A DNA stretch of 64,000 nt. It comes from an uncultured Bacteroidota bacterium (lineage in GTDB: Bacteria > Bacteroidota > Bacteroidia > B-17B0 > Aurantibacillaceae). The notes beneath the pieces are model-generated. The model worked only from the letters and a program-made list of their open reading frames with translations, was not told where the DNA came from and made no database searches. Below are positions 7,493-15,393 of the stretch, in pieces. How positions within the stretch are numbered: the stretch's first letter is position 1; every line of letters starts with the position of its first letter. Location: contig CAILKE010000004.1 in the NCBI GenBank assembly GCA_903834765.1, positions 248,001 to 312,000 on the forward strand. The letters run 5' to 3'. A program made the translations under genes and the position numbers.

Positions 7493-9267
7493 AAAAACTA
7501 CTTACCCTTGCATCCCTTATCATTCTTGCCTCTTGTGGCAGTGATAAAAAAACAGACTCTACTTCTCAAAATCAAGATGTAAATTTTGATAGCTATAAAG
7601 AACGTTTTGTAGAACAGCTCTGGGTCCTATATCCAGGTTGGGCAAGTAGTATCGGTTTTCATAAATATGATAGCGTGTTGGTTATTCCTAATGATGCTCA
7701 ACGCAACAAGGAACTAGCGTTTTGTAAAGGACAGTTGGATTCTTTAAAACGCTTTGATTTAAAAGCATTGTCGGATAATAATAAAACAGATTATCACTTG
7801 ATTGAAAATCAATTAAAGTCTACGGAGTGGTATGCAACGGCATTTAAGTCACACGAATGGAATCCCTCTGATTATAATGTTTGCGGAAGCTTTGCCGAAA
7901 TGTTAGCTAATAATTACGATTCGTTAGATACACGTCTCAGAAATTTTTATCTGAAAATGAAAAACATTCCTGCTTATTACGAAACGGCGAAACAACAACT
8001 TAAAAATCCAACCATTGAACATACGCAATTGGCCATCGATCAAAACTTAGGTGGCGCTTCAACCTTTGATGCAGATTTAAAAGAAGCATTAAATAAGTCG
8101 CACTTAGATGCGAAAGAAAAAGAAGAAATTTTAAGCAGAGCCAAAGAAGCTACGAAAGCCATTACTGATTATGCTGATTGGTTGAAGCATTTGAAACAGT
8201 CAACGCCTCGCAGTTTCAGACTAGGAAAGGATTTGTACGACAAAAAATTTGAACACGATATACAATCCGGTTATACAGCTGATGAGATTTATCAAAAAGC
8301 ACTAGAACACAAAAAAGAATTGCACGCTAAAATGTATGATCTAGCCAATACTTTATGGGATACGTATTTCACAAAGCCAGAAGCATTAACGGTTGGCGTT
8401 AAAGGATTTACGCCTAAACCAAAAGATACACTATTATTAATTAAAAAAGTAATTGATAAAATTTCCTTAAAGCATGTTGCTGCCGATTCCTTTCAAACAG
8501 AAATTGAACATCAAATACCACGCTTGGTACAATTTATAAAAGATAAAAATTTAATTTACATTGATCCTTCCAAACCATTAGTCGTTCGTAAAGAACCGGC
8601 TTATATGGCGGGTGTAGCTGGTGCTTCTATTTCTTCGCCTGGTCCGTATGATAAAAACGGAAACACCTATTATAATGTCGGAAGTTTTTCGGGTTGGGAA
8701 AAAGACCGTATTGAAAGTTATTTAAGAGAGTACAATCATTATATTTTACAGATACTAAATATACACGAGGCTATACCCGGGCATTACACGCAATTGGTGT
8801 ATTCCAATCAATCGCCAAGTATTATTAAATCTATTTTCGGAAATGGCGCTATGATAGAAGGCTGGGCAGTTTATACCGAACGGATGATGCTTGAAAATGG
8901 CTTTGGTAATAATCAACCCGAAATGTGGTTGATGTATTACAAATGGAATTTACGCACCACCTGCAATACTATTTTAGATTATGGCGTACATGTAAATAAC
9001 CTAAGTAAAGAAGCTGCCTTGGATTTGCTTGTCAATCAAGCCTTTCAGCAGCAAGCAGAAGCAGAAGTAAAATGGAAACGTGTAACAGTAACACAAGTGC
9101 AATTGTGTTCTTATTTTACCGGCTTTAAAGAAATTTATGATTTCAGAGAAGAGCTTAAGAAAAACGAAGGCAAGTCTTTTAACTTAAAAAACTTTCATGA
9201 AAAGTTCCTGAGTTACGGAAGTGCCCCAGTAAAATACATTAAGGAATTAATGGTAGTTAAGGAGTAA
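7489..9267 (+). CDS. DUF885 family lipoprotein, putative metallopeptidase
   Basis: 592 aa, predicted lipoprotein: signal peptide with lipobox ILASC, Cys at residue 16. The rest matches the DUF885 family. Characteristic elements are the HEAIPGH zinc-binding motif near residues 426-432 and the IEGWAVYTERMM segment about 25 residues later, which supplies the third ligand in related gluzincin-like peptidases. Peptide hydrolysis in the periplasm is therefore likely; the substrate is unknown. The start ATG overlaps the stop of the Bro-N gene by four bases. Its stop codon (9265-9267) directly abuts the stop of the convergent pdxA, with no base between the two genes. Confidence 0.88.
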   Translation: MKKLLTLASLIILASCGSDKKTDSTSQNQDVNFDSYKERFVEQLWVLYPGWASSIGFHKYDSVLVIPNDAQRNKELAFCKGQLDSLKRFDLKALSDNNKTDYHLIENQLKSTEWYATAFKSHEWNPSDYNVCGSFAEMLANNYDSLDTRLRNFYLKMKNIPAYYETAKQQLKNPTIEHTQLAIDQNLGGASTFDADLKEALNKSHLDAKEKEEILSRAKEATKAITDYADWLKHLKQSTPRSFRLGKDLYDKKFEHDIQSGYTADEIYQKALEHKKELHAKMYDLANTLWDTYFTKPEALTVGVKGFTPKPKDTLLLIKKVIDKISLKHVAADSFQTEIEHQIPRLVQFIKDKNLIYIDPSKPLVVRKEPAYMAGVAGASISSPGPYDKNGNTYYNVGSFSGWEKDRIESYLREYNHYILQILNIHEAIPGHYTQLVYSNQSPSIIKSIFGNGAMIEGWAVYTERMMLENGFGNNQPEMWLMYYKWNLRTTCNTILDYGVHVNNLSKEAALDLLVNQAFQQQAEAEVKWKRVTVTQVQLCSYFTGFKEIYDFREELKKNEGKSFNLKNFHEKFLSYGSAPVKYIKELMVVKE

Positions 9268-10320
9268 TTATCCTCTCTCTCTTTTTATTGGCGAAAAAGC
9301 CAAAGGATTAGCTGAGATCTCTTCGTTTAAGTGGCGGGTACGATAGATGTCAATAGCCATATATAAAGCTTCTCTAAAGGATGATTCATCTGCTATTTGC
9401 TTACCTGCAATTTCATAAGCAGTGCCATGATCAGGCGATGTGCGGATGAAATCTAATCCTGCTGTAAAATTCACACCGTTATTAAACGCCAATGTTTTGA
9501 AAGGAATTAATCCTTGATCGTGATACATGGCTAATACACCGTCAAATTGAGATTGAGTATGGTTGCCAAAAAAACCGTCAGCAGAATAAGGGCCGTAAAC
9601 CATCATACTTTCCTTAGCTTTTGTAATAGCAGGAATAATAGCGGTGTTCTCTTCATCGCCCATAGAGCCATTTTCGCCGGCATGCGGGTTTAAACCCAAC
9701 ACAGCAATTTTTGGTTTACGAATACCAAAATCTTTCACTAAGGATGTATGTAGTTGTGTGATTTTAGTCAACACATTTTCAGTTGTAATTTGTTGCGGTA
9801 CATTTTTTAAAGCTAAGTGTCCCGTTACTACTGCTATACGCAAATCTTGAGAGCATAATAACATCAAGGGTTTGCCGTCTAATTTATCGCCTAAATATTC
9901 GGTATGTCCTGGGTACTTAAATCCCGCTTCTTGTATGTTGTGTTTGTTAATAGGTGCTGTCACTAATACATCTATCTTCTTGTCAAATAAGGCTTTTGTA
10001 GCGCTTTCCAAAGATAGTTTAGCATACTTGCCACTAGCCAATGTAGGCTTGCCCATTTCAATGGTTACTTCTTCTTCGTAGCAAATAAATACGTTTGGTT
10101 TTTTTGTATGCAGTTGATTGAAATCACGTATGGGATTAAAATTAAAATCTTCTAAGCCTAACATTTTTCTAAAATACGACACTGTTTTTTGTGAACTAAA
10201 TAATACAGGTACGCAAATCTCAGATAACGCTGGGTCAGAGAGTGTTTTTAAAATAATTTCTAATCCTATGCCATTCAAATCTCCTTGAGAGATGCCAACT
10301 ACTATTTTATTGTCTATCAT
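9268..10320 (-). CDS. pdxA: 4-hydroxythreonine-4-phosphate dehydrogenase
   Basis: NAD-dependent enzyme of the DXP-dependent route to pyridoxal 5'-phosphate. It oxidises 4-phosphohydroxy-L-threonine, and the product condenses with DXP (PdxJ). The 350 residues show the family hallmarks: GISQGDLNGIGLE at the N-terminus, YPGHTEYL, MYHDQGLIPFK and SPDHGTAYEIAGK, whose histidines bind the metal. The start is ATG 10318-10320. Only eight bases separate this start from a MITE (10329-10488), so the promoter must lie within the MITE or expression depends on readthrough from the upstream gene. No pdxJ is in the window. Convergent with the DUF885 gene at zero spacing. Confidence 0.96.
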   Translation of the reverse strand: MIDNKIVVGISQGDLNGIGLEIILKTLSDPALSEICVPVLFSSQKTVSYFRKMLGLEDFNFNPIRDFNQLHTKKPNVFICYEEEVTIEMGKPTLASGKYAKLSLESATKALFDKKIDVLVTAPINKHNIQEAGFKYPGHTEYLGDKLDGKPLMLLCSQDLRIAVVTGHLALKNVPQQITTENVLTKITQLHTSLVKDFGIRKPKIAVLGLNPHAGENGSMGDEENTAIIPAITKAKESMMVYGPYSADGFFGNHTQSQFDGVLAMYHDQGLIPFKTLAFNNGVNFTAGLDFIRTSPDHGTAYEIAGKQIADESSFREALYMAIDIYRTRHLNEEISANPLAFSPIKRERG

Positions 10321-10328
10321 AATACTTA

Positions 10329-10488
10329 GAGCCTGTTTAAAATTTATCTAATAATTTTGTTATATGTCTTTTTGGCTACAAATTCGTTAAATTTTTCGAG
10401 ATAGTAGCCAACTATCTCTGCAAAATTTGCCTTTTTTCGCTCAAAAATCCATTATAACAATTATTACAATATAAATTTAAAAAGGCTC
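10329..10488. mobile_element. MITE copy 2 (160 bp), inserted at a stop codon
   Basis: Same element as at 2706-2903 in opposite orientation, with only a few mismatches over about 110 bases, lacking the internal palindromic segment. It is flanked by TTA at 10326-10328 and 10489-10491. The right-hand TTA is, on the minus strand, the TAA stop codon of the gene 10489-11598. The left end lies eight bases from the pdxA start. Confidence 0.88.
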
Positions 10489-11598
10489 TTATTTTTTAAT
10501 CCAACCAACTAATGATGCCACATCTTCGGCATCTATATTTTCCCATTTATTTTTTGCTACGTTATACACGGCTAAGCCTTGTTGATAGGCTTCATCGCCC
10601 ATTATAATTTCTTTTACAATGGCGGCATAATTTGCCGACGCTTTAAAATTTTTTAATTCAAAATGATTTTTTCCTATATCTTTTCCTTTGAAATAAATGC
10701 TTCTACCAGTTGATTTTAATTGATTTTCAACTGAAAAATTATTGTCTATTTCCTTAAAGTTAGAAATGAGCATTGTTTCTTTAATAGGGTGTATTAAATA
10801 TAATTTTTCTTTGAAATAAAATTCTACAAACACATTGCCATTTGCTTTTTCAAATTTATAGCCAGCTGATAAATTAGAAGTTGAATTAAAAATGCCAATT
10901 TCTTTAGATGTTTTTGTTAAGAGATTATATTTTACAATACTACCTTCTAAATTGGAAATCTTGATGTTAGGAAACAAAAAGGTGTTATTATCTATCCAAT
11001 AAATTGGGATACCTCCAAGGCTATGCGTTGAGCTAACGCCGCCATGCCCCGCATCTTCCATCAATACCACTTTGGGTTTATTTTGAGGAAAATACATTAA
11101 CTTGTAAGGAGATTTTGTTCTGTCAAATTCTACTTCCTGTCCTAATATGGCTTTGAAAGTAAGAGATTTAATTTCAGCATATTTGTTGGTATTAATATTA
11201 AAATACGAATAATATTTTCCTTTAAAAATATCATTTGTATAAAAAATAATACTGTCGTTAGAGCAACGAACTAATTTGCCTGAACCATCATGTAGTACTT
11301 TTTTTTCTTTTAAATCAATCACATTGCCAATCCCTGAAATTAAATAACGATCCTTATAAAGTGTATTCTCTCCTTTGTCGCAACGTACATAGTCTTTATC
11401 ATTCTTACGGCCATCTATGCTCATTATTTTTTCTCGTCCTTCGTATACGTTATTCACGAAATTATAGCGGTAGATAGCTTGTTTTAATTCAGATTTACCT
11501 TCTGGTTCGTAATGAATCACAATAAGGGATTCATCAGTATTGGATTGAGAAAATCCTACGGAAGATAAAATAATAAATATGAATATAAAACCCTTCAA
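10489..11598 (-). CDS. Secreted protein of unknown function
   Basis: 369 aa, not assigned to a family. Residues 1-18 are a signal peptide (MKGFIFIFIILSSVGFSQ), which supports the TTG start at 11596-11598, since no in-frame ATG precedes the hydrophobic stretch. The mature part alternates short hydrophobic and polar runs typical of beta structure, with repeated phrases such as RYNFVNN, YSYFNINTNKY and KYNLLTK that hint at a beta-propeller. No T9SS domain and no lipobox, so periplasmic location is likely. It lies eight bases downstream of the aminopeptidase gene and is probably co-transcribed. A MITE inserted precisely at its stop codon without changing the protein end. Confidence 0.7.
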   Translation of the reverse strand: MKGFIFIFIILSSVGFSQSNTDESLIVIHYEPEGKSELKQAIYRYNFVNNVYEGREKIMSIDGRKNDKDYVRCDKGENTLYKDRYLISGIGNVIDLKEKKVLHDGSGKLVRCSNDSIIFYTNDIFKGKYYSYFNINTNKYAEIKSLTFKAILGQEVEFDRTKSPYKLMYFPQNKPKVVLMEDAGHGGVSSTHSLGGIPIYWIDNNTFLFPNIKISNLEGSIVKYNLLTKTSKEIGIFNSTSNLSAGYKFEKANGNVFVEFYFKEKLYLIHPIKETMLISNFKEIDNNFSVENQLKSTGRSIYFKGKDIGKNHFELKNFKASANYAAIVKEIIMGDEAYQQGLAVYNVAKNKWENIDAEDVASLVGWIKK

Positions 11599-11606
11599 TG
11601 TTATTT

Positions 11607-13040
11607 TTATAAATTAGAGAAGAAATCAAATAATAATCTTACGCCATATCCCGTTCCACCTTTACCTCTGTAGCTGTCTTTGGCTGTAACAAAAGCAGGG
11701 CCTGCAATATCAAAGTGCATATACGGGTAATCGGTATATTTCACTAAAAATTTACCTGCAGTAATTGCACCACCATAAGGTCCGCCTAAGTTTTTTTGGT
11801 CAGCGATATCAGATTTTAATAATTCATCATATTCATCCCAAAAAGGAAATTCTGCTAAACGCTCGTGCATGCGTAAGCCACTAACCGTTAGTTTAGTTTT
11901 TTGTTCGTCGGTTGCAGTTCCCATACTAACAATACCATATTGTCCAATTGCAGCTGCTGCTGCACCAGTTAAAGTAGATAGTTCTATGGCCATTTCTGGG
12001 TTATAACGTTTAGCAAAGTGCAGAGCGTCGGCTAATATCATACGCCCTTCAGCATCAGAGTTTAGCATTTCAACTGTACTTCCATCCATCATTGTAATTA
12101 TATCACCTGGTGCAAATGCGTTAAATCCAGGACGGTTATCAGTAGCGGGAACTAAACCAATAACATGTACATTTAATTTTGCTTTAGCGATAGCATACAT
12201 GGTACAACCCACGGCAGCAGATCCTGCCATATCGCATTTCATTAAATCCATACTGTTAGGTGTTGGCTTAAGGCTTAATCCGCCAGTATCATATACCACA
12301 CCTTTACCAACCAATACATATGGTTTTTTATTTTTAGCATTTTTAGGTTTATATTCCATTACAGAAAATGTAGGTTCATCTACACTTCCTTGATTAACGG
12401 CTAATAAGCCACCCATTTTTAATTGTTTGATTTTAGATTTACCAAAAACTTCTACTTTAAATCCAGCTTGCTTGCCCATTACTTTGAAAGCATTAGCTAA
12501 ATCAGTTGCGTTTAAAATATTTACAGGTTCGTTTACTAAATCACGTGCTTTAAGGGTTGCATCAATCGCAATCGATAAATTGGAAAGATGCGTGTTTGTA
12601 ATTTTCGAATCAACAACAGCAATTGAGGCTAAAGTGTTTTTTTCTTTTTTCGCGCTAGGTTTATGTTTTATAAACTGATAGTTAGCAAGCGCTAATCCTT
12701 CTGTTAAGGCTAATGAATAATCAGGGTTTGATAATTCATTGGTAATTTGAATGCTTGCCAATTTATTGGCATTGAGCGTATCTGTAATAGTTGCTCCATG
12801 TTTACGAATAGATTCTAAAGTGGTATAGTGATTTTTTTTATCATCTACTAGAATCAGAATTATAAGTCGAGATAATGCATTAATACAAACAAATTTTTTC
12901 TCATTAGTCTTTATTTCATTTGAAATATAAGTTATTTGATCTTTTGTAAGATTGTAGTTTAATTTATTTTTGAAGTCTGAACACAAAATAACTAAGCTGT
13001 GCTTAGTATCTATTTCATTTTTTTTAGTAATCGCTGTCAT
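11607..13040 (-). CDS. Leucyl aminopeptidase, M17 family
   Basis: Cytoplasmic two-metal exopeptidase of 477 aa that releases N-terminal residues from peptides. The C-terminal catalytic domain shows both M17 signatures: the metal-binding Lys/Asp in GKGVVYDTGGLSLKP and the hallmark NSDAEGR (family usually NTDAEGR), followed by LADAL. The N-terminal 150 residues are the divergent macro-like domain. The ATG start at 13038-13040 fits the family length. It is followed eight bases later by the unknown secreted protein and preceded by a recQ terminator hairpin. The family is secure; PepA-type site-specific recombination roles cannot be inferred. Confidence 0.93.
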   Translation of the reverse strand: MTAITKKNEIDTKHSLVILCSDFKNKLNYNLTKDQITYISNEIKTNEKKFVCINALSRLIILILVDDKKNHYTTLESIRKHGATITDTLNANKLASIQITNELSNPDYSLALTEGLALANYQFIKHKPSAKKEKNTLASIAVVDSKITNTHLSNLSIAIDATLKARDLVNEPVNILNATDLANAFKVMGKQAGFKVEVFGKSKIKQLKMGGLLAVNQGSVDEPTFSVMEYKPKNAKNKKPYVLVGKGVVYDTGGLSLKPTPNSMDLMKCDMAGSAAVGCTMYAIAKAKLNVHVIGLVPATDNRPGFNAFAPGDIITMMDGSTVEMLNSDAEGRMILADALHFAKRYNPEMAIELSTLTGAAAAAIGQYGIVSMGTATDEQKTKLTVSGLRMHERLAEFPFWDEYDELLKSDIADQKNLGGPYGGAITAGKFLVKYTDYPYMHFDIAGPAFVTAKDSYRGKGGTGYGVRLLFDFFSNL

Positions 13041-13120
13041 AGTATTGCGAATTTACTAAAAACCAAGGATTTAATGAGATTTTGGAAATGTTTTATTAAC
13101 TAGTAGATGCTAATAAAAGC

Positions 13121-13148
13121 AACCCCATCTATAAATATAAATGGGGTT
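13121..13148 (-). terminator. Terminator hairpin downstream of recQ
   Basis: AACCCCAT (13121-13128) pairs perfectly with ATGGGGTT (13141-13148), enclosing an AT-rich loop, 34 bases beyond the recQ stop codon. A GCTTTTATT tract follows on the minus strand. Confidence 0.65.
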
Positions 13149-13182
13149 AATATCATATTTGAAAGAAATATTAAGTTGGAAA

Positions 13183-15393
13183 TTAATTCCCGAACTCACT
13201 AATGAATTTAATACGCATCAATCTAACTTCTTCTTCGCTATATTCATCTTCTCCTAATTCTTTTAAAATTGCGCTGATATCGTCTGTTTCAGCTTCGCGT
13301 AAGCATTCATAGATATCATCTTTTTTATCATCATCAATAGTTTGATCAATGTAGTAGTTAATATTTACTTTAGTTCCAGAGGCAACAATGGTTTCAATTT
13401 CCGTTAATAAATCATTCATTTTCAGATTTTTGTTTTTTGCCATATCTTCCAAACTCACCTTCCTGTCAATGTTTTGAATGATAAATACTTTTAACCCAGA
13501 TTTATTAACTACCGATTTAATAACCATATCGCTTGGACGCTCTATGTCATTTTCCTCAACGTGTTTTTTAATGATATCTAAAACTAACTTGCCATATTTT
13601 GCAGCTTTGCCTGCACCTACACCTGTAATTTTTGACAATTCTTCCATCGTAATAGGATATTGAATCGACATTTCTTCAAGCGATATTTCGTTGAATATAA
13701 TATAAGGAGGTAAATTATTTTGCTTAGCAATTTTTTTAGTTACATCTTTTAACATAGCATAAAGTACTTCGTCTGTTGTACTTGAGCCTTTGCCGCCTCC
13801 TGTTAAATCATCATCGTTGTCGCTTTCAGCGTTGCTAAAATCGTTATCACGCGTAAATTTAATGCTAGATGGTTTCTTAAAAAACGCCTTTCCTTTATCC
13901 GTTATTTTTAATAAACCATAATTTTCGATATCCTTTGAAAAGAAGCCATTAACAATAGCTTGACGCAAGATCGCATTCCAGAATTTGTCATCTTTATCAT
14001 GTTCAACTCCTTTGCCCCAAGTTTCTAAAGTGTTATGTTTATATGATTTGGTGGTAGCTGTATTATTGCCCATCAAAATATTAATCACATCCTTTACTTT
14101 GTGTTTTTCTTTACTTTCAGATACACATTCTAACGCTAATTCTAAATCGTCTTGTGCTTCGAAACGTTGTTTTGGATGACGGCAATTATCGCACATCTCG
14201 TTACATTTGCTTTCTTCAAATTCTTCCCCAAAATAATGTAAAATAAATTTACGACGGCATGCAGATGTTTCGGCAAATGATGCGGTTTCAGAAAGCATTT
14301 GTTTTCCAATTTCTTGTTCGTTTACAGGCTTGTCCTTCATGAATTTTTCTAATTTCATGATGTCATCATAACTATAAAACGTCAAGCAATTTCCTTCACC
14401 ACCATCTCGTCCAGCACGACCAGTCTCTTGATAATAGCCTTCTAATGATTTTGGAATATCATGGTGAATTACAAAACGTACATCTGGCTTATCGATACCC
14501 ATACCAAAGGCAATTGTAGCTACAATAACATCAATGTCTTCCATTAAGAAGCCATCTTGCGTTTTTGCTCTTTCTTTGGCATCTAAACCAGCATGATAAG
14601 GAGCCGCTTTAATGCCATTTACTTTTAAAGCTTCAGCTACTTCTTCTACTTTTTTACGACTTAAACAATAAATAATACCAGATTTTCCAATATTTTGTTT
14701 GGCGTATTTAATAATTTCTTTAATTACATTTTGCTTAGCACGAACTTCATAATATAAATTAGTCCTGTTAAAGGACGATTTAAATAATTTGGCATCCAGC
14801 ATTCCTAAATTTTTCTGAATATCTTGCTGAACTTTAGGAGTAGCAGTAGCTGTTAGTGCCATTACGGGAACAGATCCTAATTTCTCTATAATTGGTCGTA
14901 AACGACGATATTCAGGACGGAAATCATGACCCCATTCCGATATACAGTGAGCTTCATCAATCGCAAAAAAAGAAATTTTAAATTCTGAAAAGAAAGCAAC
15001 GTTATCTTCCTTGTTTAATGTTTCTGGTGCTACGTATAATAATTTTGTTTTACCTGATAATACGTCTTTTTTAACGGTCGCTATTTCGGCTTTATTTAAA
15101 GAAGAATTTAAAAAATGAGCTATACCTGTTTCGTTACTAAAACCACGAATGGCGTCCACCTGATTTTTCATTAAAGCAATAAGTGGCGAAACTATGATGG
15201 CTGTTCCTTCACTCATGATAGCTGGTAATTGATAACATAATGATTTTCCACCACCAGTTGGCATTATTACAAATGTATCTTGTTGATTTAAGATATTATT
15301 AATAATTTTTTCTTGAGTACCTTTAAATTTATCAAAACCAAAAAAATCCTTTAATGGTTTTAATAATTCATGTGATTCTAATTCTGCAATCAT
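13183..15393 (-). CDS. recQ: ATP-dependent DNA helicase RecQ
   Basis: 3'-5' superfamily 2 helicase acting in recombinational repair and fork restart. The 736-residue protein carries the full RecQ architecture: Walker A MPTGGGKSLCYQLPA near residue 45, DEAH box in AIDEAHCISEWGHDFRPEYR, motif IV-VI sequences (GIDKPDVRFVIHHD, YYQETGRAGRDG), a zinc-binding Cys cluster (CRRKFILHYFGE ... CDNCRH), a winged-helix RQC segment and an HRDC domain near residues 540-620. A C-terminal extension of about 110 residues rich in acidic residues follows HRDC. Monocistronic by layout: the neighbouring ybeY operon lies 234 bases upstream with no visible shared signals. Confidence 0.97.
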   Translation of the reverse strand: MIAELESHELLKPLKDFFGFDKFKGTQEKIINNILNQQDTFVIMPTGGGKSLCYQLPAIMSEGTAIIVSPLIALMKNQVDAIRGFSNETGIAHFLNSSLNKAEIATVKKDVLSGKTKLLYVAPETLNKEDNVAFFSEFKISFFAIDEAHCISEWGHDFRPEYRRLRPIIEKLGSVPVMALTATATPKVQQDIQKNLGMLDAKLFKSSFNRTNLYYEVRAKQNVIKEIIKYAKQNIGKSGIIYCLSRKKVEEVAEALKVNGIKAAPYHAGLDAKERAKTQDGFLMEDIDVIVATIAFGMGIDKPDVRFVIHHDIPKSLEGYYQETGRAGRDGGEGNCLTFYSYDDIMKLEKFMKDKPVNEQEIGKQMLSETASFAETSACRRKFILHYFGEEFEESKCNEMCDNCRHPKQRFEAQDDLELALECVSESKEKHKVKDVINILMGNNTATTKSYKHNTLETWGKGVEHDKDDKFWNAILRQAIVNGFFSKDIENYGLLKITDKGKAFFKKPSSIKFTRDNDFSNAESDNDDDLTGGGKGSSTTDEVLYAMLKDVTKKIAKQNNLPPYIIFNEISLEEMSIQYPITMEELSKITGVGAGKAAKYGKLVLDIIKKHVEENDIERPSDMVIKSVVNKSGLKVFIIQNIDRKVSLEDMAKNKNLKMNDLLTEIETIVASGTKVNINYYIDQTIDDDKKDDIYECLREAETDDISAILKELGEDEYSEEEVRLMRIKFISEFGN

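Follow-up and report, generated by a model that had tools for sequence, protein, structure and literature searches.

The window analysed here, a 64,000-nucleotide stretch from an uncultured bacterium of the Aurantibacillaceae (Bacteroidota; assembly GCA_903834765.1, contig CAILKE010000004.1), carries on its minus strand, in this order, pepA, gene X, a short repeated element and pdxA. The pepA-like gene at 11607-13040 is the first of a tight run and encodes an M17 leucyl aminopeptidase (PF00883, E 4.1e-101). Gene X occupies 10489-11598 with its stop codon and 10492-11598 without it. Its product of 369 residues, read from an uncertain TTG start, matches no family in Pfam or NCBIfam and is left unassigned; it may be secreted, as the initial annotation proposed. 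The third gene, pdxA (9268-10320), a vitamin B6 gene, encodes an intact 4-hydroxythreonine-4-phosphate dehydrogenase of 350 residues (PF04166, E 1e-108; TIGR00557, 357.6 bits, above the 290.35 cut-off), and is the single match to this enzyme within the genome. A terminator-like hairpin at 13120-13149 on the minus strand, between pepA and an ORF that we take to be recQ-like, fits a separate pepA-gene X-pdxA transcript.

The arrangement of these genes is shared with other genomes. Besides its occurrence here, gene X is present in 25 relatives, and pepA lies directly upstream of it at 24 of the 25 loci, the exception being L037. In 22 of these relatives pdxA is found on the same contig and strand as gene X, and in the other three on another contig. 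Seventeen of the 22 have a tight junction, here meaning that 6-21 nt separate the point where the gene X match ends from the match to pdxA, while in the remaining five the spacer measures 107-709 nt. The short junctions, together with the conserved adjacency of pepA and gene X, place pdxA third in a tightly packed run.

Between gene X and pdxA lies a MITE-like element of 160 bp (10329-10488, minus strand), delimited by its terminal inverted repeats and by comparison with its copies. Its A end, GAGCCTTTTTAAATTTATATTG, adjoins gene X and its B end adjoins pdxA; on the forward strand the element begins with GAGCCTGTTTAAA at 10329 and finishes with TTTAAAAAGGCTC at 10488, the inverted ends being GAGCCTGTTTAAA and, with one mismatch, GAGCCTTTTTAAA. 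The target duplication on the left is the TTA at 10326-10328, which reads TAA on the gene strand. On the right, at 10489-10491 on the minus strand, the duplication doubles as the TAA that ends gene X, as the initial annotation had recognized. In element-free relatives such as G005, G014, G017 and G018 a TAA stop is likewise present, and the start region of pdxA follows it immediately. The eight bases that had been counted between the pdxA ATG and the element are likewise borne out: three belong to the duplication, and the other five, GTATT (10321-10325, minus strand), are left over from the original five-base spacer between TAA and ATG, as judged from this sequence and from the relatives. The insertion had been placed at 10318-10491, and an insertion is indeed found there, but position 10318 still belongs to the start codon of pdxA, as the final base of its ATG (10318-10320), and the element proper extends only from 10329 to 10488.

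All three pdxA-ward reading frames of the element are broken by stops, and the element is thus non-coding. With its duplications, the pdxA-ward strand has a predicted folding energy of -50 kcal/mol (z -8.0), which none of 200 shuffled sequences equalled; for the opposite strand the values are -40.6 kcal/mol and z -6.8.

The same genome, assembled as 3.6 Mb in 79 contigs, contains six near-full copies of the element and two partial sites. Exact matches to GAGCCTGTTTAAA number ten, against none for the reversed control. Four of the other five near-full copies are 91-97% identical to the copy at pdxA, and at four of the six the 3-bp duplications (TTA or TAA) are identical. A second copy within the window, at 2706-2903, is 198 bp long and flanked by TTA duplications; its B arm holds approximately 40 extra internal bases, which contain a second small palindrome, CAAATACCCAGTGGGTATTTG.

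Comparison with element-free relatives, which the initial annotation had suggested, finds all 17 tight gene X-pdxA junctions empty. In G005, G014, G017 and G018 the junction reads ...AAAAAAA TAA ATT ATG, and removal of the element in silico from the present site yields ...AAAAAA TAA GTATT ATG. At the five longer spacers of 107-709 nt, no hit to the element was obtained among the candidates scored (at most 14 per genome). Because duplication-flanked copies exist in the same genome and the 17 tight relatives lack the element, the gene X-pdxA junction is the site of a real, derived MITE insertion. The earlier identification as a MITE is thereby upheld: the element is short and non-coding, has terminal inverted repeats, recurs in multiple copies with duplications, and is missing from the corresponding site in relatives. 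In one of these relatives, G017, pdxA itself appears as two overlapping matches (C125:54910-55897), one with an internal TAG, representing either a pseudogene or an assembly error.

The position of the insertion on a stop codon raises the question of whether such codons are targeted. Copies from several genomes with identical TTA or TAA duplications and both neighbouring genes called were compared, after removal of those with more than five end mismatches, a length below 155 bp or repeated flanks. Six of the 27 copies had landed on a stop codon, compared with 4.6 expected from the TWA sites available per gap (P 0.16), and targeting of stop codons was rejected. The best explanation is a preference for the 3-bp target TTA/TAA (TWA), and where neighbouring genes lie only a few bases apart, the stop codon is often the sole TWA site. 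Since landing on TAA regenerates the stop, an element with this target can enter gaps of only a few bases without damage to either protein; the pdxA site illustrates cleanly how a MITE can get into a packed operon by way of a stop codon. Copies in such same-strand gaps are found in G001, where L079 lies between LuxE-like and methylguanine-methyltransferase genes and L125 between an HlyD-like and a TsaD-like gene, and in G088, where L147 lies between DnaJ and glyoxalase genes. The LuxE-like/methylguanine-methyltransferase and DnaJ/glyoxalase sites are similar to that at pdxA.

The consequences for pdxA could in principle be transcriptional. The initial annotation held that the insertion had replaced all upstream DNA of pdxA, and that the element might now supply its promoter or leader. 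The first of these statements is not supported: before the insertion, pdxA followed gene X at a distance of five bases, within the conserved pepA-gene X-pdxA run. The insertion displaced pdxA from gene X and did not remove a dedicated promoter region. The second stands in part: the leader beyond position -8 does come from the element, but the pdxA-ward strand of this copy contains no TAHHTTTG. That sequence is the -7 box of Flavobacterium johnsoniae, in which T-12, A-11, T-8, T-7, T-6 and G-5 are nearly invariant according to PMC6847099, and TAnnTTTG is the form given for F. psychrophilum in PMC9723704.

A rival explanation is a promoter at the A-end box that reads toward pdxA and starts a short transcript through the hairpin into the gene. 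In 52 of 74 aligned copies TATTTTTG, which matches TAHHTTTG, lies at one position approximately 40 bases inside the A end, and without alignment the box occurs anywhere on the A-to-B strand in 44 of the 74, some of the 52 having an extra T; shuffling of five copies gave a frequency of 11-14%. The element is also correctly oriented at pdxA, and promoters are known on other MITEs, Correia and BrickBuilt being the examples in PMC10969869. Yet the copy at pdxA reads GATTTTTG at this position (10442-10449, minus strand), a degenerate version that has lost the first T, T-12. Moreover, the box lies within the palindrome, so that its conservation may stem from another cause, and in relatives pdxA belongs to a tight gene run in which its own promoter is unnecessary.

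The placement of copies relative to genes was also compared. Of 66 sites, three inside ORFs and three that could not be placed were left out, and the remaining 60 were compared with TWA sites in gaps up to 1500 that lie within the window or within 20 other stretches, each of 20 kb. Divergent gaps held 22 copies against 14.6 expected (P 0.034, uncorrected for several tests), and convergent gaps 10 against 11.4. In a version judged by eye with an 80-aa limit and partly different copies, the divergent excess was larger than with the 100-aa limit and the control. This excess mildly favours residence near promoters. Among the 28 copies in tandem gaps, 18 point in the same direction as the genes and 10 in the opposite direction, a bias that is not significant, and recruitment as a promoter was rejected as an explanation of placement. 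A weak promoter within the element is thus possible in general but disfavoured at pdxA, and the proposal that the element drives this gene appears quite improbable. Between 13300 and 10321 the minus strand contains a single perfect TAHHTTTG. It lies within gene X (10858-10851), and one such match is, by estimate, about what chance would produce in DNA so rich in AT. There is none upstream of pepA as far as 13300, so the box provides no candidate for an operon promoter.

Given the close packing of the genes, transcription most likely still reaches pdxA as read-through from a start further upstream. Within 10329-10488 there is no terminator-like site on either strand, and in particular no hairpin followed by a T-run on the pdxA-ward strand. 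The likely effect would instead be post-transcriptional. A MITE preferring TWA entered the TAA of gene X in the five-base gap of the pepA-gene X-pdxA run, where the duplication restored the stop and left both proteins intact; gene X and pdxA are indeed unaltered, as originally noted. The insertion added a 163-nt hairpin leader before pdxA and set the stop codon of gene X apart from the pdxA start, so that any translational coupling between them would be lost. Because all three pdxA-ward frames of the element are closed, ribosomes that have translated gene X stop at its TAA and cannot read on to pdxA.

The sequence shortly before pdxA is also altered. At positions -14 to -11, AAAA is replaced by AGGC, reducing the A count from four to one; in 17 relatives the mean is 2.9 of 4. 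A-3 and A-6 are retained. In place of the A-rich stretch there is now a GC-rich arm, predicted to pair with the other arm of the element. When positions -200 to +120 are folded, positions -20 to -1 reach a mean pairing of 0.79 when the element is present, compared with 0.55 for the joined empty site; in a local fold from -100 to +100 the values are 0.65 and 0.53. Pairing at least equal to that of the real element was seen in five of 60 shuffled versions, and the predicted change in accessibility at the start is modest. In F. johnsoniae, ribosome density is higher where there is an A at -12 or -13 and where the region between -20 and +20 is little structured (PMC6847099). By comparison with that organism, the loss of the A-rich stretch and the raised pairing lead to the prediction that translation of pdxA is reduced or uncoupled.

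An alternative is that the insertion is neutral, harming neither protein and changing pdxA expression negligibly. Both proteins are intact, the landings on stop codons match the number of available TWA sites, and three further copies lie in few-base same-strand gaps of G001 and G088. Against neutrality, the leader from -20 to -9 and its predicted pairing are changed, and this alternative seems unlikely. As a whole, read-through within the operon, combined with a spacer hairpin that is predicted to lower or uncouple the translation of pdxA, is probably the correct explanation of the site. Counting against it are the spacers of 107-709 nt in five of 22 relatives, which show that pdxA can do without close spacing. 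The locus offers a test of what happens when a hairpin replaces an A-rich leader, and bears on translation in bacteria that do without Shine-Dalgarno sequences.

The element is not confined to this genome. A scan of genome contigs with the 22-base A end returned 19 stretches, from Pelobium, Olivibacter, Pedobacter, Avrilella, a Flavobacteriaceae MAG and other Bacteroidota MAGs, and the element of about 160 bp occurs both in Flavobacteriaceae (Avrilella dinanensis) and in Sphingobacteriaceae (Pedobacter mendelii). In A. dinanensis there are 61 matches to the end with at most one mismatch, against none for the control, and each of the 16 stretches retrieved around pairs of ends yielded copies 159-161 bp long. 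The more distant of the copies compared share 71-82% identity with the copy at pdxA, and deletion forms of 77-107 bp occur.

The stems of the element covary. When 61 distinct copies are aligned, double-sided changes that preserve pairing are seen at 17 of the 40 predicted pairs, with sequences rather than events being counted; columns 32 and 142, for example, hold GC in 35 copies and UA in 24, and columns 33 and 141 hold UA in 32 and GC in 24. Of the two strands, the pdxA-ward one (A-to-B) has the better fold in 59 of the 61. When isolated mismatches in folds restricted to Watson-Crick pairs were counted by unique context, G-T (18) and A-C (16) were nearly equal, so that there is no clear RNA signal, and strand-specific selection on an RNA was rejected. 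The covariation could also arise through correction of the palindrome during replication. The strong fold and the covarying pairs might suggest that the sequence is a conserved regulatory RNA of pdxA and not a transposon. This is scarcely credible, as the element is absent at pdxA from all 17 tight relatives, its copies lie beside many unrelated genes and are flanked by 3-bp duplications, and no Rfam covariance model matched window positions 9000-13300 at E values up to 1. The empty sites and the duplications refute a regulatory RNA as the primary description.

What moves the element is a separate question. The TNA-target groups of the IS5 family in ISfinder are defined by a 3-bp TNA target and by ends that begin with GAG. 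The present element resembles them in its TTA/TAA target and GAG ends, yet no IS5-type transposase with the same ends was found, and its own genome contains neither a PF01609 nor a PF13586 transposase. Searches with these two families revealed no parent in 20 genomes of the genus, nor did PF01609 in four further named genomes. None of 12 PF01609 loci is surrounded by the inverted ends of the element, and long inverted-repeat pairs in Avrilella and at other loci gave no parent element; a 2.3-kb end pair in Avrilella was rejected, as it spans ordinary genes. In G041 a related element is interrupted by contig breaks, and a longer element there is possible.

Other known MITEs differ in further respects. 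Correia elements of Neisseria have TA as their target, unlike the TTA/TAA found here, and the promoter box is degraded in the pdxA copy. They too are short, have inverted repeats and lie close to genes, and some of them carry promoters and hairpins (PMC10969869). BrickBuilt from Porphyromonas gingivalis (PMC4596501) and MITECca01 from Cardinium (PMC9769881) are also non-coding Bacteroidota elements with inverted ends; MITECca01 measures approximately 240 bp and has an IS982-family parent, whereas the element described here is of about 160 bp, with a TWA target, and is parentless so far. A parallel in location is Chunjie from Geobacter uraniireducens, a MITE in an operon, which according to the title of Chen et al. 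(2008; cited in PMC10969869 and PMC5896051) inserts "without disturbing the operon structure". Chunjie is 178-235 bp long and belongs to another phylum, and is distinguished here by its description rather than by sequence; it is also described as disrupting one copy of two phosphate uptake operons (PMC10969869). No paper containing "GAGCCTGTTTAA" was found in the literature searched, nor any on MITEs, Flavobacterium, terminal inverted repeats and transposase together, and among the papers listed no title or opening lines of an abstract described the element.

A MITE inside an operon is thus of a known kind, and the orphan family with its conserved fold is the more novel lead, which may merit more attention than the pdxA site. 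Taken jointly, these features allow a tentative reading, which we consider possible but rather doubtful: an undescribed family of mobile hairpins in at least three Bacteroidota families, nearly fixed at about 160 bp, with asymmetric ends and a fold kept over sequence, moved by a transposase that does not come from a conventional IS5-type parent sharing those ends. If this were true, selection on the hairpin, whether as transposition substrate or as RNA, would explain both the persistence of the element and its tolerance inside operons. A good system for finding the missing transposase is A. dinanensis, whose 2.3-Mb genome holds many near-identical 160-bp copies (L214-L229 and L234-L241) together with deletion forms of approximately 77-85 bp, with matching duplications. 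In the genome of the window, near back-to-back element ends form palindromes of 25 and 40 bp at positions 1489-1513 of L020 (contig C55) and at C22:42804-42843 (L155), which are either deletion remnants joined at their ends or terminators.
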